A DNA stretch of 35,943 nt from Bacillota bacterium (GTDB taxonomy: Bacteria; Bacillota; Clostridia; Acetivibrionales; JANLFN01). A program made the position numbers and the translations under genes. Location of the stretch: assembly GCA_030705825.1 (NCBI GenBank), contig JAUZPR010000018.1, forward strand, positions 1 to 35,943, read 5' to 3'. Shown piece by piece: positions 6,179 through 30,237 of this stretch (position 1 is its first letter; the number at the start of each line of letters is the position of its first letter). Below the pieces are notes generated by a model. It was not told the DNA's origin. It made no database searches and was given only the letters and a program-made list of their open reading frames with translations.

Positions 6179-9100
6179 TTATACCACCTTTACATTTTCA
6201 TCGCCAAGCCTTGAAACCAGTTCAGCCAGTAGAACATTGTTGAGATTTACCAGGTATTTGCCTGTATCCATGGGCTTTTTACCGCCATCATAAATATATA
6301 CCGGTATGTTTCCATTAAAAAATTCAAGCATTGCAGTCAGTGAATCAACAAATTCTTTGTCCTGGCTGTTGTGTACTCTCAAAAACAATTTAGGGCCTTT
6401 TGCCTCTTTTGCAGATGGTTCATTATACTTTCCTGATTCTGCTCTAAGAGGTTCTACCGAATCTGCAATTATTTTTGGAGCTTCCTCCTCCTTTACGCTT
6501 ATTCTTCCGTTTATAAAAACCATATTTTCTTCCTGCAGCATACTTCCGTATTTTGTAAGTATTGCAGGAAAAACTATGATCTCCATGGTCCCGAACAGAT
6601 CCTCAAGCTGTACAAATGCCATAAGACTATTGCTTTTTGTTGTCTTGGTTTTTACACCGGCAATAATTCCTCCTACTTTAACAGCCATGCCGTCCTGGAA
6701 ATTTTTCTCCGTTTCCTGAATACTTTCGCCTTCTTCCGATTCCGATGCACCTATATCCTTGCTGAAAAAAGAAACTCTGCCATTAAGTATAGCTTCATAC
6801 TCACTTAACGGATGCCCCGATATATATAAGCCCAGCATTTCCTTTTCCATCGAAAGGAGCATTTTAGGCGGATATTCTTTGATATCAGGATAATCCTCAG
6901 AAGTTATATTCATTTCCTTTTGAGGAGCAGAAAATTCAAAAATTGAAAGCTGTCCTTCCATATTCCTTTTTCTCGCAGCCTGAATTCCATCAATTACCTT
7001 CTCATATACAGCCATAAGCTTTGATCTGAAAACCTGCAATGAATCGAAAGCCCCGCATTTTATCAGGCTTTCTATACATCTTTTGTTTATATCCCTGCTG
7101 CCCGCCCTCTCTGCAAAATCCATGAAGCTTTTATAGCTTCCGTTTTTATTTTTTTCCTCTATTATGGAACGTACAGCGCTTTCTCCAACGTTTTTTACAG
7201 CAGCCATCCCAAATCTTATTTTTCCGTTAACCACTGTAAACCGGACATCACTCTCGTTAATGTCGGGAGGCAGCACTTCTATATTCATCTCCTTGCATTC
7301 ATGTACATATTCCGATATTTTATCACTGCTCCCCAGAAAACTATTGAGTAGGGCCGCCATAAATTCAACCGGATAATAGTATTTAAGCCAGGCCGTCTGA
7401 TATCCGACAACCGCATAAGCCGCGGCATGAGACTTGTTGAAAGCATAGCTTGCGAAATTCATCATTTCATCGAAAATTCTGTTTGCGACCTCAGAGCTTA
7501 CACCATTTCTTACCGCTCCATTGACAACAATGTTGCCATCACTGTCTGTAATACCGTTAATAAAGTTCTGGCGTTCCTGCTCCATGACACTTACTTTCTT
7601 TTTTGACATTGCCCTTCTAACAAGATCGGAACGACCGTAGGAATATCCTGCAAGATCCCGTACTATCTGCATTACCTGTTCCTGATAAACTATACATCCA
7701 TATGTCACATCCAATATGTTTTCAAGCAGCGGGTGGTCATATTTTATTCCAGCAGGGTTGTTTTTATTTTTTAAATACGTAGGTATCTGATCCATAGGAC
7801 CTGGCCTGTATAATGCATTTCCGGCTATTATATCCTCAAGTGAAGAAGGCTGCAGTTCCTTTAAAAACTGCTTCATACCTGCACTTTCAAACTGGAATAC
7901 TCCTTCGGTTTTACCCTCGCCCATCATCTTAAATACATTTGGGTCATTGGTATCCATGGTATCGAGGTTGATTTCAATGCCGTGATTCTTCCTTATGAGC
8001 CCAACGGCATCCCTTATTACCGTTAAAGTCCTTAATCCGAGAAAATCCATTTTGAGAAGGCCCAGTTCCTCTAAAATGCCCATTGTAAATTGAGTCGTAA
8101 CACTGTCTTCATTCTTTTGCAGCGGTACGTATTCGGTTACCGGATCTTTTGAAATAACTACTCCTGCGGCATGGGTAGAGGCATGTCTTGGCATACCTTC
8201 AAGCAGCTTGGCCATATCAATAAGCTCAGCGGCCCTGGCGTCGGCGTTATAGAGCTTTTTCAACTCAGGATTAAGCTCCAGAGCCTTTTCTATATTCATA
8301 CCTATCTGAAACGGTATCATTTTCGCAATAAGATCTACTTCATTGTACGGAATGTCAAGTGCTCTTCCGACATCCCTTATAGCCGCTCTTGCCGCCATGG
8401 TACCGAAGGTAATGATTTGAGCCACCCTGTCCTCGCCGTATTTTCTTACCACATAATCAATTACCTCCTGCCGTCTTTCATAGCAGAAGTCTATATCTAT
8501 ATCAGGCATACTTATTCTTTCAGGATTTAAGAATCTTTCGAACAGCAGACTATATTTCAGCGGGTTGATATTGGTAATGCCCAGGCAGTATGCGACAAGG
8601 CTTCCGGCAGCAGAACCTCTTCCCGGTCCTACCATTATTCCATTGTCTTTTGAATATTTGATAAAATCCCATACAATCAAAAAATAATCGACATAACCCA
8701 TCTGTTTTATAACAGAGAGTTCATATTCCAATCTTTTGACCTTTTCTTCATCGGTATTGTCTTTAAACCTTTTTTCAAATCCTTCATAGCATAATTCTTT
8801 AAGGTATTCAAAAGGCTCCTTGTTTTCAGGTACATCATACTCAGGCAGGTGAAGCTTGCCGAATTCCAGTTCGACATTGCAGCGCCGGGCAATTTTTATT
8901 GTATTTTCAACCGCCTCAGGTATATTTTTAAATAATGCGCACATTTCCTCGGGCGATTTAACATAAACCTCATTTGTTGAAAACCTCATGCGGTTTTCAT
9001 CGTTCATATTGGTTCCTGTCTGAATACAAAGCAGAATTTCATGGGCTTTGGCATCCTCACGCCTCAAATAATGGGCATCGTTTGTGGCAACCAGCGGAAT

Positions 9101-13036: not shown

Positions 13037-13151
13037 CCAAATGAAAAAGGCTGAAAGAAAGGAGCAACCCACTGCCAGCAAACAGTATAAGCTCCTAATT
13101 CCAACCTTTAACAAATACTTACCTCTCTATTATAACACTTTTGATAATTAG
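13029..13151 (+). CDS. Small 40-aa ORF coupled to the preceding gene
   Basis: An ATG at 13029 overlaps the stop of the previous gene in the arrangement ATGTATAA and reads 40 codons, MYNQMKKAERKEQPTASKQY followed by a hydrophobic and aromatic half. A GAGAGGG purine run lies about 8 nt upstream. It ends just before the ribosome-binding site of the transposase gene, so it fills the gap precisely. The stop-start overlap suggests translational coupling. The product is unknown and it may not be a functional gene. Confidence 0.4.
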   Translation: MYNQMKKAERKEQPTASKQYKLLIPTFNKYLPLYYNTFDN

Positions 13152-13170
13152 CGAAAAGGAGGTAATAAGG

Positions 13171-15231
13171 TTGCCGGAAACATTTATCACTATAGAGCAA
13201 GCTGCTGAATTAGAAGGTATAAGCTATAACACCTTTATAGTTAGAAAAAATCGCAATCCTGAATTATATAAAACTAAAACGGAGCAATCCGAAGCCGGAG
13301 GAAAGGAAAGAATTCTTGTAGACCTTGCCTCTTTATCTAAAAAGGCTATGCGGACATATCAGATGAAACAGGAAATTCAAGTTAATCTGATAAAAGAGTT
13401 TGAATCCTCTGATGGTGACGATGATGAAGCCTGGTATGTTGGTGTTGAACTCAGCAAGTATATGGCAAAGCATAATGAGCAGTTTTATAAAAATGTTGAG
13501 TTCGCAAACCGGATCAAGGAATACCTCGACTATAGAGGTTTCGACAAAACACAATATACTGAACAATTTGCTGAAAGATTAGGAATGAGCGGTAGAAATT
13601 TCAGACGCAAAGTTGACAAGTATCTTGAAGGGTGTGCCTGGGCTATAGAAATGAATGAACATAGCGGTAAGAATTATGACTTCTATAAAATCCTTGCCTT
13701 ATGCCCAAGACCCAGAGAAAAAAAGTATATTGCTTTAACGGATGAAATGAAGGTATTAATTGAAAACATCTGGTTTAATCCATCCTTTGCAGCCAACCAC
13801 AGGAAACAGACACAGCTTTATATAGTATTTTGCAAGATCGCTGAAACCAAGGGATGGGTGCTGCTTCCAAGTTATCCGACAGTGAACCGGTATATCAATG
13901 AAATCTCCGGTAAATATGCAGGTGAGCGTTTCTTGGCAGATCAGGGAATGCGCGAGTTAAAACGTAAAATGATGATTAAGCGCAGAAGAAATACTGGAAT
14001 GCTAAAGGTAATGGAGCTAGTACAAGGAGACGCACATACATTTGATTGTTGGGTGAAAGTAATAAGGCCCAATGGTCATATAACAGCTATAAAGCCGTAC
14101 CTGGCTGCACTAATAGACACACGCAGCAGGTGTCTTGTAGGTTGGGCTGTTTGTGAAGTACCTTGTTCGGACGTTATAAAGCAAATGCTAATGCACATGA
14201 TGTATCCCAAAAAGAATAATCCAATCGAAGGAGTCCCAAGAATAATCCTTATAGATAATGGTAAGGACTGGACGGCACAAACTCTGACAGGCCGAAACCG
14301 TAAGGAGAGGGTAAGCCTGGACGGTGAAATTAAAGGATTTTTCAAAAGTATAGGCATCGAGGATGATATGCGAAGCTTGCCATATCAAGCATGGACGAAA
14401 GCGCAGATTGAAAGGTTCTTTGGAACTCTTTGCTATAACTTTACCAATGAGTTTGATTCATATACAGGTACCTTGACTGGTTCAAAGACTATTGGAAAGA
14501 TCAAAAAGGATATCAAAGGAATGCTTGAGAGGAATGAACTCCTTTCGATTGAAGAATTCGCAACACTCTTTGATAACTGGCTTAACGTAGTTTACCATAA
14601 CAGAGTCCATAGTGGCCTTAAAGAGCAAAAAGAGAAAGACCCTCGGCCATTAAGCGTATTCCAGGATGCAGACAGATATTTTAAGGCTGCGCCTCCAATG
14701 GAATATACAAGAGTACTTCTTATGAAAGCTGAAGAGAGGATGGTTTATGCAACAGGCATAAAGATGGATAACGGTTACTACCATAACGAAGCTCTAGGCC
14801 GTTATATTGGTAAAAAGGTTGATATACGTTTCAGCCAGGATAATCCATCAATCTTACATGTTTATGATAAAGATGATGGTAGCAAATTATGTGAGGCATA
14901 TCTTGAAAAAGGTCTTAACCCCTTAGCAGCACAAAATGATCCTGAACTTGCAGAACATATGCAGGTGCAGCACAGACAGCTTAGAGGAATCAGGGAAAAC
15001 CTTCTTTATCTGCAGACATCATACGAAAACAGGCAACTCCCCCGAAAAGCTTCAAAGGCAGATAGAAAGGTCATATTGCCAGAATTAAAAGAGGAAGCAC
15101 CAAAGATTGTCAGCATGGTTGATGACAAGCAGTATAAAGAAGAGGTTAAGAAACGTAAAGGTAAAGGTAGTGCAGACTGTAATGAGTTTTTTGACAGGCA
15201 GTTTGAGAAAGCAATGGCTAAATTAGGATAA
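13171..15231 (+). CDS. MuA-like DDE transposase
   Basis: This 686-aa protein should catalyse strand transfer in integration and replicative transposition of the prophage. It starts with an HTH (PETFITIEQAAELEGISYNT), continues with further DNA-binding helices (SGRNFRRKVDKYLEG) and holds an RNase H-like core with D287 (VQGDAH), D362 (ILIDNGKDW) and E414 (AQIERFFG), spaced 75 and 52 as in MuA (D269, D336, E392). A beta-barrel region and a basic tail, which in Mu contacts MuB and ClpX, follow. The TTG at 13171 is chosen because AAAGGAGGT lies 7 nt upstream; an in-frame TTG at 13141 has no such site. MuB-like gene follows by 13 bp. Confidence 0.93.
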   Translation: MPETFITIEQAAELEGISYNTFIVRKNRNPELYKTKTEQSEAGGKERILVDLASLSKKAMRTYQMKQEIQVNLIKEFESSDGDDDEAWYVGVELSKYMAKHNEQFYKNVEFANRIKEYLDYRGFDKTQYTEQFAERLGMSGRNFRRKVDKYLEGCAWAIEMNEHSGKNYDFYKILALCPRPREKKYIALTDEMKVLIENIWFNPSFAANHRKQTQLYIVFCKIAETKGWVLLPSYPTVNRYINEISGKYAGERFLADQGMRELKRKMMIKRRRNTGMLKVMELVQGDAHTFDCWVKVIRPNGHITAIKPYLAALIDTRSRCLVGWAVCEVPCSDVIKQMLMHMMYPKKNNPIEGVPRIILIDNGKDWTAQTLTGRNRKERVSLDGEIKGFFKSIGIEDDMRSLPYQAWTKAQIERFFGTLCYNFTNEFDSYTGTLTGSKTIGKIKKDIKGMLERNELLSIEEFATLFDNWLNVVYHNRVHSGLKEQKEKDPRPLSVFQDADRYFKAAPPMEYTRVLLMKAEERMVYATGIKMDNGYYHNEALGRYIGKKVDIRFSQDNPSILHVYDKDDGSKLCEAYLEKGLNPLAAQNDPELAEHMQVQHRQLRGIRENLLYLQTSYENRQLPRKASKADRKVILPELKEEAPKIVSMVDDKQYKEEVKKRKGKGSADCNEFFDRQFEKAMAKLG

Positions 15232-15244
15232 TGGAGGTAATTTT

Positions 15245-16216
15245 ATGGAAACTGCAGTTGTATATAACTTTAAGCAAGATGTACAGGGTATAACAAGAGA
15301 CTTTTTAAATAAAAACAGTATGTCAATAGAAGAACTCGCAAAGAAAATAGGTTTTTCAAGGCCAGCATTAACACAGTATTTATCAGGTAAGTATGCATCG
15401 AACCCGGCTAATATCGAAAAGGCAATCATAGAGTATCTTAAAGTTGAAGGATTTATTAACAACCAGAATGAAAAAGCTTTAACAACTTCCCCACAGAAGA
15501 TAAGCTTCTTTCCCTCCAGGGATGCAAAGAATATCATTGCAATATGCCAATCATGCCAGGAATCACAGGGGCTTGGAATAATATCTGGTAAGTCGGGTTT
15601 TGGAAAAACACATGCTTTAAAACAGTACGCTAAGGCAGAACGTGTTTGCTACATATATTGTGATGATGCAATGGGCTGCAGAGACCTGATTGAAACAATC
15701 GAGGAAACACTTGGAATACCTCAAAAATATGGTTCCATATCAAAGCGTGTTAAGGGAATCAAGAAGTTCTTTAATGTCAACAAAGGTTATCTGCTGATCA
15801 TTGATGAAGCCGACAAGCTCCTCAATAAGTTTACACAAAAGAAGATGGAAATATTAAGAACGATTTATGACCCCACGGATCGTGACTCAGATGAGCCGGA
15901 TGTCGGGTTGGTTATTGCTGGTGAACCAAGGCTTGAATCTCTTATAAAGGCATATCTTCCGAGGTTTGCGAACAGGGCAGATTTTAATATCCGACTTGAA
16001 GGATTATCCCACAAAGAAGTTGAGAAGTACCTTGAACCATATAACTTCACAGATAATGCGCTTTCAGAAATGATGGCAAGAGCAACAAATAACCAAACAG
16101 GCTGCTTCAGGCTCTTAAATAAGACTTTAAGAAATATATTGAGGCTTCAGCCTGATACTTCTGAAGGAATTACCCTGGATATCATTAGCAAAGCAAGCAG
16201 CATGATGATGCTTTGA
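15245..16216 (+). CDS. MuB-like transposition target ATPase
   Basis: The 323-aa AAA+ protein has an N-terminal HTH (about 27-65: MSIEELAKKIGFSRPALTQYL), Walker A GKSGFGKT (115-122) and Walker B LLIIDEAD (183-190). MuB-type ATPases coat target DNA, activate the transposase and give target immunity. The N-terminal HTH plus C-terminal AAA layout is that of Mu B. A GGAGGT site precedes the ATG by 7 nt, and the gene follows the transposase closely. The name ExeA-like AAA protein might be given by an automatic tool, but the position next to the DDE transposase decides for the MuB role. Confidence 0.9.
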   Translation: METAVVYNFKQDVQGITRDFLNKNSMSIEELAKKIGFSRPALTQYLSGKYASNPANIEKAIIEYLKVEGFINNQNEKALTTSPQKISFFPSRDAKNIIAICQSCQESQGLGIISGKSGFGKTHALKQYAKAERVCYIYCDDAMGCRDLIETIEETLGIPQKYGSISKRVKGIKKFFNVNKGYLLIIDEADKLLNKFTQKKMEILRTIYDPTDRDSDEPDVGLVIAGEPRLESLIKAYLPRFANRADFNIRLEGLSHKEVEKYLEPYNFTDNALSEMMARATNNQTGCFRLLNKTLRNILRLQPDTSEGITLDIISKASSMMML

Positions 16217-16453: not shown

Positions 16454-16831
16454 ATGGATAATAAAATTTCTGAGTCAATTAATATTGTTGTAAACAGTCT
16501 GGCTGCAGGCGTAATTAAGAAAAGTGATGCAATAAATGCTCTTAGTAGTGCAATCAAAAATCGATGTCTAGGTTGTATTAAAGATTATTGTATGAATGGT
16601 ATTACAGATGCTCTTGAGTTATATTCTGATACTTCAGAGATAGGTTCTGAGAGCAATACCGATTCTGAGTATCCTTTGGATTCAATAACATATTCAAATG
16701 CAACAATACTGTTTGCGAAAAAAGGTATGGTGTTTCAGTGCGAAAATGGGCATGTACTAGGGATTTACAAAAGTAATAATGAAATGGAGGTCGAAAGCTA
16801 TGTTGAAAAGCAAAGAATTGCTTGTTTTTAG
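16454..16831 (+). CDS. Early phage protein of unknown function
   Basis: About 125 aa, starting MDNKISESINIVVNSLAAGV. The ATG at 16454 is 10 nt after GGAGG; a TTG at 16448 is an alternative with only 4 nt spacing. It has a CLGCIKDYC cluster, an acidic Ser/Thr-rich middle and a C-terminal CENGHVLG segment, so a metal-binding site is possible. The end overlaps the start of gam by 32 bp, suggesting coupled translation. No family is recognised. Confidence 0.6.
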   Translation: MDNKISESINIVVNSLAAGVIKKSDAINALSSAIKNRCLGCIKDYCMNGITDALELYSDTSEIGSESNTDSEYPLDSITYSNATILFAKKGMVFQCENGHVLGIYKSNNEMEVESYVEKQRIACF

Positions 16832-17288
16832 AAATTGGGATGAAGTAAACCAGGCACTTAAGGAGTTGGGAGATATCGACAGAAGGGTCACAAGGCTTGA
16901 GGCAGATATGAATAGCAAAATTAATGACATAAAGGCTGATTTTGAAAGGGATGCCACTCCCCTTATCAACAGAAAGGAGCAACTGGAGAAAAATGTACAA
17001 GCTTTTACTGAATGCTATCAGGAAGAGTTTGTCGCAAGTAAATCTAAAAAATTTTTATATGGTACAGTCGGGTTCCGCAAGACTTCAAATATTGTTGTCC
17101 GAAATGTCAAAGCTATTATTGAAGCTATAAAGCAGAATAAAATGGATGATTGCCTTATCATCACTGAAAAGATAAACAAAGAAGAACTTGAAAAATATGA
17201 TGATAAGTCCCTGGAGAAGATAGGTGCCAAGAGAAACATCAAAGACAAGTTCTTTTATGAATTAAGTATAGAAAGGGTTGATGGCTAA
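16800..17288 (+). CDS. Gam-like host-nuclease inhibitor
   Basis: The 162-aa protein resembles the Mu Gam family, which forms Ku-like dimers on DNA ends and protects phage DNA from RecBCD/AddAB-type exonucleases. Visible hallmarks are a long N-terminal coiled coil (about 12-70), the central KKFLYGTVGFRKTSNIVV strand and a C-terminal lobe with KINKEELEKYDDKSLEKIGA. The ATG at 16800 lies after TGGAGG with 8 nt spacing; an earlier in-frame ATG at 16779 has no such site. Gam is in the same relative place in Mu (early, after A and B). Its stop overlaps the next ATG (TAATG). Confidence 0.88.
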   Translation: MLKSKELLVFRNWDEVNQALKELGDIDRRVTRLEADMNSKINDIKADFERDATPLINRKEQLEKNVQAFTECYQEEFVASKSKKFLYGTVGFRKTSNIVVRNVKAIIEAIKQNKMDDCLIITEKINKEELEKYDDKSLEKIGAKRNIKDKFFYELSIERVDG

Positions 17289-17560: not shown

Positions 17561-18061
17561 ATGCTTAAGGCTAATACTGTTAGAAAAGAAATCTCAAAGC
17601 CACAATTACGGCATATATACGCTATGAGCCATGAACTAGGACTGGACGATGATACCCTTCATGAAATGGTACACTCAATTACAGGCAGTCATCATATAAG
17701 CAGTCTTACTAATGATGAAGCAATTACAGTAATCGACAGGTTAAAAGGCAATATGAAAGGGTTTCGAAGATTTACAAAATCAAATAATGATACTGTAGTT
17801 AACAGGATCGGAATGGCAAACGAAGCTCAGATTAAAAAAATATACGCATTAATGTATGAATTAAAGAGTTATGATGAGCCAGGTTATCCATTAGTAACAA
17901 TTAATAAAAGGCTTCGAGGTATACTAAAGAAATATAATAAGATTGATGATGTTCGTTTCCTCACTGCAACAGATGCATGGAAGGTAATCGAAGAGATCAA
18001 AAAGATGATTATTAGTGAAAAGCGAAAGCTAAAGAGGAAAGCGAGGGACGATAATGGCTGA
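17561..18061 (+). CDS. GemA/gp16-family phage regulatory protein
   Basis: The 166-aa protein matches the Mu gp16 (GemA) family: it begins with a LRHIYAMSHELGLDDDTLHE-type helix-loop and has the SSLTNDEAITVIDRLKG segment, and a second related half follows (AQIKKIYALMYELKSYDE). In Mu, gemA is linked to host gene expression changes and DNA topology; the exact activity is not established. AAAGGAGGT precedes the ATG by 8 nt. The end overlaps the next gene by 8 bp. Its position after gam matches Mu-like genomes. Confidence 0.85.
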   Translation: MLKANTVRKEISKPQLRHIYAMSHELGLDDDTLHEMVHSITGSHHISSLTNDEAITVIDRLKGNMKGFRRFTKSNNDTVVNRIGMANEAQIKKIYALMYELKSYDEPGYPLVTINKRLRGILKKYNKIDDVRFLTATDAWKVIEEIKKMIISEKRKLKRKARDDNG

Positions 18062-18985: not shown

Positions 18986-19010
18986 CAAAGTCCGTAATTT
19001 AATGTATAAA
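18982..19010 (+). promoter_or_regulatory. Consensus promoter at the mor gene
   Basis: TTGACA (18982-18987), a 17-bp spacer and TATAAA (19005-19010) form a near-perfect sigma-A promoter. The start point should be near 19017, only about 6 nt before the mor ATG (19023), so the GGGGG ribosome-binding site (19011-19015) would be mostly upstream of the transcript. Confidence 0.65.
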
Positions 19011-19022
19011 GGGGGTATATAT

Positions 19023-19340
19023 ATGGCTGAAGAATATGATTGGTATGAGGAAATTGATCCTGATGAGCTTACAGAGCCATACAGGGAACTATCTGCAACC
19101 ATTGGCCTAAAGAATACATTAAAACTTGCTGAGAAGTATCAAGGAATGGCTTTGTATTTACCCAAACTTGATGGCTTAATCCGCAGGTTAAGGGATGAAA
19201 AAATAAGAAAAGAGTTTAATGGAGGCAATTACAGAGAGCTTGCCATTAAATATAAGCTCACTGAGGTCTGGATCAGACAGATTGTCGATGATCATCCAGT
19301 TGAATCAAATCAGGTAACTCTTTTTGAAATTGCAAAGTAA
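19023..19340 (+). CDS. Mor-family transcription activator
   Basis: The 105-aa protein corresponds to the Mor/C family of Mu, dimeric activators that switch on middle or late phage transcription. Typical parts are the acidic N-terminal dimerisation region (EIDPDELTEPYRELSATIG), the ALYLPKLDGLIRRLRDEKIRKEF segment and the C-terminal HTH (NYRELAIKYKLTEVWIRQIV). The ATG at 19023 has GGGGG 8 nt upstream; an in-frame ATG at 19002 has none. It is followed by a strong terminator and then by the late genes, matching an activator gene at the early/late boundary. Confidence 0.88.
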   Translation: MAEEYDWYEEIDPDELTEPYRELSATIGLKNTLKLAEKYQGMALYLPKLDGLIRRLRDEKIRKEFNGGNYRELAIKYKLTEVWIRQIVDDHPVESNQVTLFEIAK

Positions 19341-19382: not shown

Positions 19383-19415
19383 AAAATCCTAGTATAAACA
19401 TACTAGGATTTTTTG
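19383..19415 (+). terminator. Strong intrinsic terminator after mor
   Basis: A perfect 13-bp stem (AAAATCCTAGTAT at 19383-19395 with its complement at 19400-19412) has a 4-nt AAAC loop and ends in six T. It separates the early/middle part from the late operon, which would need its own, probably Mor-dependent, promoter between 19416 and 19440. Confidence 0.9.
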
Positions 19416-19835: not shown

Positions 19836-20129
19836 ATGGATAAGTTAAAAGTAATTGAGGCTAAAAGATTAAGAGCATTGCTAATTAAGGCTTTATATGA
19901 TGCATTCCCTGGAAGCATTCTTAAAGGTACGCTCAAAAGAGCATTCGTTGATAGTTATACTAACAATGAAGTTGACAAGGCTATTGAATACCTGAAGGAC
20001 ATACGCAAGCAATATATTGAAGTGACTGATACTGAAGAAGCCAACGATGATGATACGTTGATCAAGCTTACTGCCATAGGTAATGACCTAATGGAAGGTA
20101 CCATTGATGACTTGGGAGTTGGTTTTTAA
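19836..20129 (+). CDS. VpaChn25_0724-like phage protein
   Basis: The 97-aa protein follows DUF2730 by 2 bp behind AAGGAGGGG and overlaps the next start by 1 bp. It looks like a winged-helix protein: LRALLIKALYDAFPGSI, NNEVDKAIEYLKD and a LIKLTAIGNDLMEGTI end where 'LT.kG..ll.G' is the usual signature. Mu-like phages have such a gene between DUF2730 and DUF3486. It may help packaging or late control; this is inference. Confidence 0.7.
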   Translation: MDKLKVIEAKRLRALLIKALYDAFPGSILKGTLKRAFVDSYTNNEVDKAIEYLKDIRKQYIEVTDTEEANDDDTLIKLTAIGNDLMEGTIDDLGVGF

Positions 20130-20713
20130 TGGCGGCTGAAAGGGAGAGAACAAGGGTCTGTTCCAAGGTTGATGAGTTGCCGGAGGAAGCACGTACCAAG
20201 CTTGATCAGATGCTTGCAATGACTGGCGAAGATTATATGAAGTATCAGGAGATATCTGATGAGTTAAGTAAAATGGGATATGCCATCAGTAAATCTTCAA
20301 TCGGAAGGTATGCCATAAAAAATAATTCGGCTATCAAAAGGCTTAAAGAAGCAAGAATCAGAACCGAGGCTCTTCTGGATGCCGTAAAGGATAATCAGGA
20401 TATTCATGGAACCGAAATTGCAACAGCACTGTTTGTTGATCAGCTTGTACAAAGGATGGCTACTGCAGAAGATGATATTGAAAACCTTCCGATAGAAAAG
20501 GCTGCGAAGCTTATGATAGCTATTCAAAGAAGTGCTGTATATAAAGAAAAGTTTAAAATGCAATTTAACAAGGGCTATAAACAAGCTTTGTTGGAAGTAA
20601 AAGCTGAATTCATAAAGGAACTTAAGGAAAATGAACCTGAGCTGCTCACCAGGATCATCGAAGTAGCAACCAGACTTGAAAAAAGTATTGAACAGAAAGC
20701 TGCAGGTGATTAA
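20129..20713 (+). CDS. DUF3486 protein, putative small terminase subunit
   Basis: The 194-aa protein has the DUF3486 layout: an N-terminal DELPEEARTKLDQMLAMTG helix, a HTH-like YQEISDELSKMGYAISKSSI and GRYAIKN section that suggests DNA binding, and a long helical remainder. In Mu the gp27 homologue is regarded as the small terminase subunit that recognises phage DNA for packaging. It starts 1 bp inside the preceding stop and is followed by the NusG-like gene rather than by the large terminase, which is unusual. Confidence 0.8.
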   Translation: MAAERERTRVCSKVDELPEEARTKLDQMLAMTGEDYMKYQEISDELSKMGYAISKSSIGRYAIKNNSAIKRLKEARIRTEALLDAVKDNQDIHGTEIATALFVDQLVQRMATAEDDIENLPIEKAAKLMIAIQRSAVYKEKFKMQFNKGYKQALLEVKAEFIKELKENEPELLTRIIEVATRLEKSIEQKAAGD

Positions 20714-20714
20714 A

Positions 20715-21227
20715 TTGCTTGCCGAATGGTATGTACTTCATGTCAGGACTGGCGAAGAAACCAACGTCCGGGATTATATAAAAAGAGAAATTCCGCAGAT
20801 CAAGGCTTTAGCCCCTCGGCGTGAAATGAAAGAACGCAAGGATGGAATATGGAGAACCAGAATTCGAACACTATTCCCCGGATATGTATTCATAAACAGT
20901 CTGATGACTGTAGATGAGTATTACAAGCTTAGTAATATAGGTGGGGTTATAAATATCTTAAAGGGTGCATCCTCCTCCCCGTCCCCTATCCCGGAAGAGG
21001 AGATGGAAATTATCTTGAGACTATCAAGAGATAATGATTTGGTTGGAATTACAGACCTTGTAATTGATGGTGATAATATCAAAGTTGTCACTGGCCCCCT
21101 GGAAGGTTACGAAGGACAAATACTTAAGGTTGACAGACACCGTCTGAGGGCGAGAGTAAAGTTTACACTGCTCGGACAGGAAAAATGTGTTGACCTTGGT
21201 ATAAATGTAATAGAGAAAATAGGTTGA
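20715..21227 (+). CDS. LoaP-type NusG paralogue (antitermination factor)
   Basis: The 170-aa protein has a NusG N-terminal domain (AEWYVLHVRTGEETNVRDYI, then IRTLFPGYVFIN) and a KOW domain with GPLEGYEGQI followed by KVDRHRLRARV and LGINVIEKIG. The 'W..LFPGYVF', 'GPL.G.EG' and 'DRH' features resemble LoaP, a specialised NusG relative that travels with RNA polymerase through terminators when it meets a leader hairpin. Start TTG at 20715, 6 nt after AGGTG, begins just after the DUF3486 stop; an earlier in-frame ATG (20676) would add 13 unrelated residues. Two hairpins and a terminator-like stem follow, before the head and tail genes. Antitermination of the late operon is inference, though well placed. 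Confidence 0.88.
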   Translation: MLAEWYVLHVRTGEETNVRDYIKREIPQIKALAPRREMKERKDGIWRTRIRTLFPGYVFINSLMTVDEYYKLSNIGGVINILKGASSSPSPIPEEEMEIILRLSRDNDLVGITDLVIDGDNIKVVTGPLEGYEGQILKVDRHRLRARVKFTLLGQEKCVDLGINVIEKIG

Positions 21228-21300
21228 AGCTTTTACGTGCTTGATTCGTCGCAGGTAAAAGCTCAATGCGTTTATAAAGGTGAGTAAAGCAAGCCGCATT
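21228..21300 (+). promoter_or_regulatory. Leader hairpins between the LoaP-type gene and terminase
   Basis: Hairpin 1 pairs AGCTTTTAC (21228-21236) with GTAAAAGCT (21255-21263), then after a G-G mismatch TGC with GCA, leaving the loop TTGATTCGTC (21241-21250). Hairpin 2 pairs AATGCG (21265-21270) with CGCATT (21295-21300). They begin at the LoaP-type stop codon and precede a terminator-like stem, the arrangement expected for an antiterminator loading site. I cannot verify the known LoaP-binding loop sequence. Confidence 0.6.
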
Positions 21301-21315
21301 TACAAGAATGTGGAT

Positions 21316-21333
21316 GGCGAAGCTCGCCTTTTT
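21316..21333 (+). terminator. Terminator-like hairpin in front of the terminase gene
   Basis: GGCGA (21316-21320) pairs with TCGCC (21324-21328) over AGC, followed by TTTTT (21329-21333). The stem is short but GC-rich. Being 72 bp before the large terminase start, it would stop most late transcripts unless polymerase is modified. Confidence 0.6.
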
Positions 21334-21404
21334 AGATTTGAATTTTCTCAAGCAAAATGTCAAAAACATGTTATTTTCCCCCTTTCTTTTGTGAGGTGGT
21401 ATAG

Positions 21405-23123
21405 TTGAGTATTTTAAAAGAGATTGCTGGCATAAGCGGAACCATTGATGACTGTAAAAATCATGAAGCTTTGAAAAGTCTCACATTTGAGTATCTAAAT
21501 AAAAATGTAGACCAGTATAAAAAAGAGCTTCTTAAAGACCTAAATAGGGGTGCTCCTTTAACTGGGGAAAAAGGAATAAGAAAAAAATTAGGTGCAGTCG
21601 ACCTTGAGTATTTTGGGAAAGCATACTTCCCCCACTATTTTAATAGAGAAACTCCTGAATTTCACCGTGAATTAGATAACATATGGATGAATGGTGTTTT
21701 GAAAAGCAAGCTTCCAGTAGGCATTAATGAGGTAAAAATCATATCAAGATTACCTGGATGCAAAAGGGGTATTGCAGCTCCCAGAGGACATGCTAAAAGT
21801 ACAAACTTAACATTCAAAGATACTATTCATGCGATAGTTTATCAATATAAACATTATCCAATGCTTATATCAGACTCTTCTGAACAAGCTGAATCGTTCC
21901 TTGAAAATATAAGAGTCGAGTTTGAGGAAAATCAGGCAATAAAAGATGACTTCGGTGATTTGCAGGGTAAAGTTTGGAGAAATGAAGTAATTATAACTTC
22001 TACAGATATCAAGGTTGAAGCTATAGGTTCCGGCAAAAAAATCAGAGGTAGAAAGCATAGAAACTGGAGGCCAGACCTTATTGTTCTTGATGATATTGAA
22101 AACGATGAAAATGTAAGGACTCCAGATCAAAGAAAGAAGCTTGAGAATTGGTTCTTGAAGGCCGTTTCAAAAGCAGGTGATGATTATACTGATATTATGT
22201 ATATAGGTACATTGCTCCACTATGATAGTTTGCTGGCGAAGGTATTAAGGAACCCGGGATATAAGTGTGTAAAATATAAAGCTGTCCTTTCTTTTGCAAC
22301 TAATAAAGAATACTGGGACAGGTGGGAAAGAATATATACCGACCTATCCAATGAAAATCATGAGATTGATGCACAGAACTTCTTTGTAGAAAACAAAAAC
22401 GAAATGTTGCAAGGTACAGAGGTATTATGGGAAGCAAAGCTTTCTTACTATGACTTAATGGTCATGAAAGTTACTGAAGGTGATGCAGCTTTTAATTCTG
22501 AGGAGCAGAACGAGCCTATAAATCCTGAAGATTGTTTGTTTAATGAAGAATGGTTTGATTACTTCAATGAAGCTGAAATTGATTTCAAGGATAAGGCATT
22601 TAAGTTCTTTGGTTTTGTTGATCCATCCCTTGGTAAAAGTAAAAAGAGCGACTATTCGGCAATCATAACAATTGCCAAACATATTAAGACAGGCTATATG
22701 TATGTAATAGACGCTGATATTCAAAGAAGGCATCCTGATAAAATAATTGAGGATATTCTCGAAAAAGAGAAATGGCTTAGAACCGACTATAAACATGGGT
22801 ACACAAGGTTTGGTGCCGAGACCAATCAATTCCAATGGTTCTTAAAAGAGGAATTGGCTAAGGCAAGTGCAAAAGCCGGGTTATATCTTCCAATTCAAGA
22901 AGTTAATCAAACTTCAGATAAAACTTTGAAGATCCAAACTCTTCAGCCAGATATTAAGAATAAATATATCAAATTTAATCCCAGACACAAGCTTTTGCTT
23001 GAACAATTAAAGTATTTCCCAATGGCTGATCATGATGATGGCCCGGATGCACTTGAAGGATGCAGAACCATTGCTAAAAAAGATAAGAAAAATAAAGCCA
23101 CTAATAAACCTACTGGCTGGTAA
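21405..23123 (+). CDS. Large terminase subunit
   Basis: The 572-aa DNA-packaging motor has an N-terminal ATPase with a Walker A-type loop PRGHAKS (126-132) and Walker B LIVLDDIE (225-232). A C-terminal RNase H-like nuclease starts with GFVDPSLGK (D406) and ends with DHDDGPDAL-type acidic residues. It cuts and pumps DNA into proheads at the portal. The start is TTG at 21405 behind GAGGTGG. The portal follows by 12 bp. The 5'-leader contains the antitermination-type hairpins. Confidence 0.92.
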   Translation: MSILKEIAGISGTIDDCKNHEALKSLTFEYLNKNVDQYKKELLKDLNRGAPLTGEKGIRKKLGAVDLEYFGKAYFPHYFNRETPEFHRELDNIWMNGVLKSKLPVGINEVKIISRLPGCKRGIAAPRGHAKSTNLTFKDTIHAIVYQYKHYPMLISDSSEQAESFLENIRVEFEENQAIKDDFGDLQGKVWRNEVIITSTDIKVEAIGSGKKIRGRKHRNWRPDLIVLDDIENDENVRTPDQRKKLENWFLKAVSKAGDDYTDIMYIGTLLHYDSLLAKVLRNPGYKCVKYKAVLSFATNKEYWDRWERIYTDLSNENHEIDAQNFFVENKNEMLQGTEVLWEAKLSYYDLMVMKVTEGDAAFNSEEQNEPINPEDCLFNEEWFDYFNEAEIDFKDKAFKFFGFVDPSLGKSKKSDYSAIITIAKHIKTGYMYVIDADIQRRHPDKIIEDILEKEKWLRTDYKHGYTRFGAETNQFQWFLKEELAKASAKAGLYLPIQEVNQTSDKTLKIQTLQPDIKNKYIKFNPRHKLLLEQLKYFPMADHDDGPDALEGCRTIAKKDKKNKATNKPTGW

Positions 23124-30185: not shown

Positions 30186-30220
30186 ATCAAGAGGAGGGGG
30201 ATTCCCTCCTGCTTGATTTT
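30186..30220 (+). terminator. Strong terminator-like hairpin inside the late operon
   Basis: ATCAAGAGGAGGG (30186-30198) pairs with CCCTCCT (30204-30210) and CTTGAT (30212-30217), a 13-bp stem with one bulged G and loop GGATT, followed by TTTTG. It lies between the tail-tube and tail-chaperone genes. Either an attenuator that lowers distal transcripts or a site that modified polymerase must pass. Confidence 0.65.
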
Positions 30221-30237
30221 GTATGGAGGACTTTAAA

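Follow-up and report, generated by a model that had tools for sequence, protein, structure and literature searches.

A loaP gene and its two-element leader inserted between the terminase genes of a Mu-like prophage: a probable antitermination cassette for virion genes

The DNA analysed here (the window, 35,943 nucleotides of contig JAUZPR010000018.1 from a Bacillota bacterium) contains a Mu-like prophage in which the small and large terminase genes are separated by an insert made up of a gene for LoaP, a specialised paralogue of NusG, and a 177-base leader. The coordinates are listed in Table 1. The best explanation, which we consider probable, is that the protein and the leader form a self-contained antitermination cassette driving the virion operon. 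An initial annotation, made from the sequence without database searches, had read the region as a LoaP antitermination circuit in a Mu-like prophage, and this reading is supported by the analyses below, with readthrough itself being inferred.

The contig is of clostridial type and carries the left part of the prophage, with the contig end falling within the tail genes. The prophage qualifies as a Mu-like transposable phage in that a Mu-type transposase and its ATPase, Gam, GemA, Mor and a gp27-type small terminase are all present, the gene for the last of these being located directly 5' of loaP. The Mor activator proposed in the initial annotation is confirmed by its Pfam match. The large terminase gene, which had been described as opening the head/tail operon, does follow the leader, but it is not strictly the first head gene because the gp27-family small terminase gene precedes loaP.

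Table 1. Features of the prophage and of the loaP leader in the window
Feature	Position	Strand	Remarks
Mu-type transposase	13141-15231		
Transposition ATPase	15245-16216		
Gam	16779-17288		
GemA	17561-18061		
Mor/C-family activator	19002-19340	+	Pfam Mor PF08765, 1.6e-14
Strong intrinsic terminator	19383-19412	+	Lies between mor and the genes that follow it
Small terminase-like protein, Mu gp27 family	20129-20713	+	Pfam PF11985, 1e-25; PHROG 426
loaP	20715-21227	+	Specialised paralogue of the NusG type, 170 aa; TTG start immediately behind the gp27 stop
H1, UNCG-type hairpin	21228-21263	+	5' UU bulge 21241-21242, GA/UC pairs, UUCG loop 21245-21248
TTATA	21272-21276	+	Position of the (C/T)ATA element trailing H1 in most leaders
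Possible compound intrinsic terminator	21276-21333	+	AAAGGTGAGT .. AGCTCGCCTTT + U-tract, enclosing H2; from folding; unconserved in relatives
H2 hairpin	21294-21313	+	CCGCATTT-ACAA-GAATGTGG; ends directly 5' of ATGGCG
M2, predicted pause/ops-like motif	21312-21328	+	GGATGGCGAAGCTCGCC; motif GGATGGCGAAGC
Large terminase (TerL)	21405-23123	+	PHROG 38, 1e-110; first gene past the leader, followed by later virion genes
Terminator-like hairpin within the late operon	30186-30220	+	-19.5 kcal/mol, z = -4.0; weak U-tract

By its sequence, the product of loaP is LoaP and is distinct from the housekeeping NusG of the host, whose genome encodes that NusG separately and only one LoaP. The score against the NCBIfam model NF033641 (antiterm_LoaP) is 184.1 bits (cut-off 125, E = 2.2e-54), compared with 75.7 bits for the housekeeping NusG model (cut-off 135.7), 62.9 bits for UpxY and 42.1 bits for RfaH (cut-off 144.5), each below the cut-off of the respective model, which leaves the protein outside RfaH. 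It also matches PHROG 6386, annotated as transcription antiterminator. The best solved structure by sequence is 8f5g, matched over its full length at 6.6e-38 compared with 7.8e-17 for the best housekeeping NusG structure; 8f5g bears the name NusG in the PDB; we take it to be Thermoanaerobacter LoaP. In a quick tree, the root of which is uncertain, all LoaPs (phage, host and 8f5g) are split from NusG by a long branch (SH-aLRT 100). The NusG paralogue with LoaP-like features noticed initially is accordingly placed among LoaP rather than other NusG relatives, a check that had been suggested along with the annotation, by profile score, nearest structure and tree alike. The protein has E40 and R41 at the same positions as the RNA-binding pair of Bacillus velezensis LoaP, mutation of which abolishes hairpin recognition and antibiotic production (PMC12691694). 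Among 77 LoaPs of Mu-like phages the equivalent arginine is nearly constant (71), whereas the glutamate is less so (44, with isoleucine in 22). All three NusG rows of the alignment have isoleucine in the R41 column.

The first leader element, the hairpin H1, begins in the window right behind the stop codon of loaP. Its folding energy of -15.8 kcal/mol (z = -3.4) was equalled by none of 200 shuffled sequences. Across 39 phage leaders the covariation score of H1 is 0.481, compared with 0.175 in shuffled alignments and no more than 0.252 when the structure is slid along the alignment, and the number of two-sided compensatory cells is 100 compared with 45.9 after shuffling. The loop variants in relatives are UUCG, UACG, UGCG, UCCG and CUCG, closed mostly by GA..UC in the phage hairpins and by GU..GC for non-phage LoaPs, and H1 fits the description of the "UNCG-type hairpin" of the dfn and mln leaders. 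An ATA (or ACAGG) element occurs shortly past the UNCG core in 48 of 64 leaders. In some phages H1 is located 240–320 nt past loaP. A search of the window against Rfam gave zero matches, and RNAalifold applied to the whole leader recovered only the H1 core because the arms of the second hairpin, H2, differ in length; H2 was therefore tested by anchoring.

H2 is a stem of free or variable sequence that in relatives runs up to the motif M2 or stops just short of it. A stem score of at least 12 was found at the H2 position in 81% of 74 leaders compared with 28% of shuffles, and in 36 of the 74 the 3' end of the stem lies immediately before ATGGCG (-1). For the downstream half of the window leader (21262-21336), the folding energy is -28.3 (z = -4.6). 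The two leader hairpins that the initial annotation had placed after the NusG paralogue therefore both fold, and they recur in related phages with covariation in H1, as had been proposed for verification.

M2 has the consensus (GG)ATGGCGAAGC, and the window copy, GGATGGCGAAGC, abuts H2. With at most one mismatch, M2 was found after loaP in 40 of 66 nonredundant viral leaders compared with 0.27% of shuffles; with at most two mismatches the corresponding values are 52 of 66 and 3.1%, and for non-phage LoaPs 10 of 29 compared with 0.86%. The 29 include one locus (L009) that turned out to be a Mu-like prophage. The definition of M2 rests in part on the leaders that supplied its first counts, but the scan of 391 genomes, the test on 80 named loci and the sampling by small terminase or Mor described below draw on different data or a different sampling gene. 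A pyrimidine-G step (Y-1/G+1) in the register of a pause, with G at -10, is present in 49 of 71 M2 motifs, which had been selected by the core letters and not by this step. In the window the predicted RNA 3' end is C21325 (-1), followed by G21326 (+1) and with G21316 at -10, and lies 12 nt beyond the base of H2. This hairpin-to-3'-end distance is that of hairpin-stabilised pauses such as those of his-type leaders. H2 and M2 thus likely represent a hairpin-stabilised, ops-like RNA polymerase pause, judging from geometry and consensus, with pausing itself being inferred. The ops element has the sequence GGCGGTAGCGTG and is defined as a consensus directly recognised by a NusG paralogue; M2 does not meet this definition, being GGCGAAGCnnTG-like, that is, similar but not ops. 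A role of M2 as a covarying RNA stem was also considered and rejected: complementarity within sequences (3.30) is no better than across sequences (3.24 ± 0.06), and an RNA stem therefore does not explain the conservation of M2. None of the three other ATGGCGAAGC copies in the host genome has an H1 upstream, and therefore no further leader was seen in that genome.

The two elements are held at a fixed distance. In 64 of 76 M2-bearing leaders, phage and non-phage pooled, a UNCG core is located 66.2 ± 5.0 nt (range 59–94) upstream of M2. We infer that this spacing reflects a geometric constraint between LoaP bound to H1 and a paused polymerase.

The protein and the leader also occur together. Mu-like genes are found upstream of 65 of 68 nonredundant viral LoaPs. 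When Mu-like loci were sampled by small terminase or Mor, the leader was found in all 16 loci with LoaP (weakly in one, L420) and in none of the 32 without. There is some overlap between these 16 loci and the training set; five of them (L424, L426, L429, L431 and L437) are outside it, judging by contig name, and have leader scores of 49–88 bits. In the relatives that lack LoaP, the gp27 and TerL genes usually overlap, mostly by 8 bases. Taken together, the co-occurrence and the terminase overlap in the absence of LoaP indicate that loaP and the leader constitute a cassette.

A covariance model of the phage leaders was run blind against 391 genomes of the class, and eight of the nine best hits (E < 1e-4, the window itself excluded) adjoin a LoaP gene, the exception being L253. 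In 80 named LoaP loci, whose carriers include Paenibacillus sanguinis, P. popilliae, a Brevibacillus MAG, Desulfotruncus arcticus and Clostridium citroniae, all 33 leader-model hits are on the LoaP strand and 31 of them are directly after or before loaP. A pattern consisting of a UNCG core, 50–75 bases and TGGCGAAGC gave 120 matches in viral contigs, 26 of them right after a LoaP gene; the remaining matches look like chance. A blind scan for the 14-mer TTGATTCGTCGCAG in viral contigs yielded mostly chance matches, yet it returned a Mu-like phage (L099) whose LoaP is 47% identical and whose H1 lies immediately past loaP.

Several leaders depart from the arrangement in the window. In some clostridia (L334, L335, L338, L339, L341, L348, L349, L350 and L352) the leader-model hit is directly 5' of loaP and not 3', which suggests that loaP is located within its own target operon. 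Leader-like UNCG..GGCGAAGC elements with no LoaP within 1.5 kb were seen in three clostridial genomes (L573, L574 and L575) and are candidate targets in trans. In two related prophages, weak second hits of the leader model near the transposition ATPase gene (L355, 141-222; L347, 397-478) are unexplained. In L003, the closest relative of the window phage (68% LoaP identity), loaP and the leader are retained and the large terminase (6687-8207) is quite different from that of the window; TerL has therefore been exchanged behind a conserved leader.

The terminator-like stem reported initially at 21316-21333 is real but is accounted for mainly by the M2 motif. The short stem (21316-21328) followed by TTTTT does not stand out when taken alone (-6.8 kcal/mol, z = -1.0) and belongs to a longer compound hairpin in which 21276-21285 pairs with 21322-21331 and H2 lies inside. 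L003 keeps the leader up to the end of M2 and has AATCT in place of TTTTT, and a contiguous terminator between loaP and TerL is found in 18 of 63 leaders in the sense direction compared with 12 of 63 in the antisense direction. On these grounds a terminator was ruled out as a conserved leader feature; it is possible in the window phage but is not a family trait.

A terminator within 180 nt past the mor stop codon was found in 34 of 67 Mu-like loci compared with 1.5% of shuffles. The arms of this terminator change together in relatives (TCCTAGTAT, TCCAAGTAT, TCCAAGTG). The additional terminator-like hairpin that the initial annotation had located inside the late operon does exist, with an imperfect U-tract (GCTTGATTTTG), and a stricter scan of the late region gave no other terminator-like match in sense orientation. 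Its 5' arm holds a Shine-Dalgarno-like AGGAGGGGG just 5' of the gene at 30223, and the hairpin could affect translation instead of termination. The idea of a terminator-laden late operon is unsupported, as late regions totalling 260 kb contain 29 terminator-like sites in sense and 58 in antisense. Since the late regions are poor in sense terminators, it is unclear which obstacle LoaP would overcome downstream.

These results lead us to propose the following scenario. Transcription would start 3' of the mor terminator, from a promoter assumed to depend on Mor as in Mu, and would continue across the small terminase and loaP genes into the leader. LoaP may bind H1 in the nascent leader, although binding is inferred and no binding data exist. 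Approximately 66 nt further on, RNA polymerase would pause at H2/M2, backed by the hairpin and the ops-like GGCGAAGC core, and the pause would give H1-bound LoaP the time and place to load onto the polymerase. The modified polymerase, presumably shielded from NusA-stimulated pausing and termination, would then transcribe the long virion operon from TerL on. The sequences support the assignment to the LoaP family, both leader elements, the constant spacing between them and the strict co-occurrence of protein and leader, whereas the dependence on Mor, the pause at M2, the loading of LoaP, NusA antagonism and readthrough are inferences in the absence of transcription data.

The possible leader terminator raises the question whether LoaP merely blocks termination at 21276-21333 and gates entry into TerL without travelling with the polymerase. 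In the window, a 10-bp stem ending in TTTTT can form around H2, and terminators come after M2 in some relatives (L178, L181 and L195), but the missing U-tract in L003 and the lack of conservation described above argue against this possibility, as does the fact that published LoaP reads through distal dfn terminators placed behind the dfn leader (PMC12691694); we regard it as unlikely, though worth keeping in mind. It is very improbable that LoaP acts on H1 only to repress or stabilise its own mRNA, with the late genes not being the target. That H1 of the window starts immediately past the end of loaP would suit such feedback, but the H2/M2 accompanying H1 at a fixed spacing, the distance between loaP and H1 in some phages, and the relatives in which loaP and leader are both absent and gp27 is joined to TerL do not.

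Conversely, M2 could be the primary site, with LoaP loading on the non-template DNA in the manner of RfaH, mainly blocking Rho or coupling polymerase to ribosomes, and H1 being auxiliary. The resemblance of M2 to ops (GGCG-AAGCnTG compared with GGCGGTAGCGTG), its fit to the pause consensus, the absence of stem covariation in M2, which suits recognition of the sequence as such, and the scarcity of intrinsic terminators in the late region are all compatible with this notion. However, H1 is conserved at least as much as M2 and has strong covariation, and B. velezensis LoaP is active in vitro without Rho or ribosomes and requires the RNA hairpin (PMC12691694), which makes an RfaH-like mode quite unlikely. 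That the prophage simply captured a NusG paralogue next to ordinary intergenic hairpins is scarcely credible: its only support is that NusG paralogues are seldom seen among annotated phages (the collection gave 31 matches, every one below 60% identity), and it is already contradicted by H1 covariation, M2 enrichment, co-occurrence and spacing.

The antitermination cassette that we favour is a LoaP system by profile score, tree position, RNA-contact residues and leader hairpin, with the pause being predicted and the leader terminator only possible. It shares with the dfn and mln systems of B. velezensis (PMC12691694) a LoaP-family protein, a UNCG-type leader hairpin and E40/R41 at the same positions. 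It differs from them in its carrier, a transposable phage, in its target, the virion genes that it precedes, and in a second leader element resembling ops; its biochemistry is unmeasured. The phage leader is directly behind loaP on the same transcript. The dfn leader contains, in this order, a UNCG hairpin, a NusA-sensitive pause and a terminator, and deletion of the pause weakens LoaP action in vivo (PMC12691694). H2/M2 matches this pause in order, a comparison not based on the dfn sequence, and by analogy the outline of the phage system may be the leader logic already described for dfn (a UNCG hairpin, then a NusA-enhanced pause and a terminator) reused for late genes. Unlike dfn, the phage late operon is not terminator-laden and its leader terminator is unconserved. 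RfaH and ops likewise combine a specialised NusG paralogue with an M2-like core and pause consensus and with probable loading at a leader pause, whereas LoaP systems need the RNA hairpin and the window protein falls outside RfaH. Late control in Mu (Mor, then C) has in common with the window phage a Mor-family activator, a terminator after mor and the gene order, and differs in that loaP and its leader stand in the middle/late region of the latter. Phage-specified antitermination of downstream operons is also known from lambda N/Q and HK022 put; here the protein is a NusG paralogue and the RNA element a UNCG hairpin at a fixed distance from a pause motif. An open-access literature search for NusG or LoaP in Mu-like phages, or for a second leader element, found nothing relevant.

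A broader reading can be offered only tentatively. LoaP systems in general may use a hitherto undescribed two-part loading signal (UNCG hairpin and H2/GGCGAAGC pause approximately 66 nt on), and Mu-like phages of Bacillota may be a major, perhaps ancestral, home of LoaP, from which the LoaPs of antibiotic operons are later domesticated branches. The ancestral part of this notion derives from the quick tree, which when rooted on NusG has the phage LoaPs branching basally and unites the non-phage LoaPs, with weak support, in one nested group.

Until now LoaP has been associated with a small number of long biosynthetic operons, and how it is recruited beyond one RNA hairpin is unsettled. The phage set defines a full leader signal of hairpin, fixed spacing and pause motif, so that loading becomes testable on one short DNA template, and the leader model can be used for finding LoaP targets in genomes. 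Approximately 70 distinct phage systems, together with sister phages without the protein and the leader, provide a comparative and experimental resource. Besides activating promoters through C, Mu-like phages may have in this cassette an additional means of controlling their virion genes.
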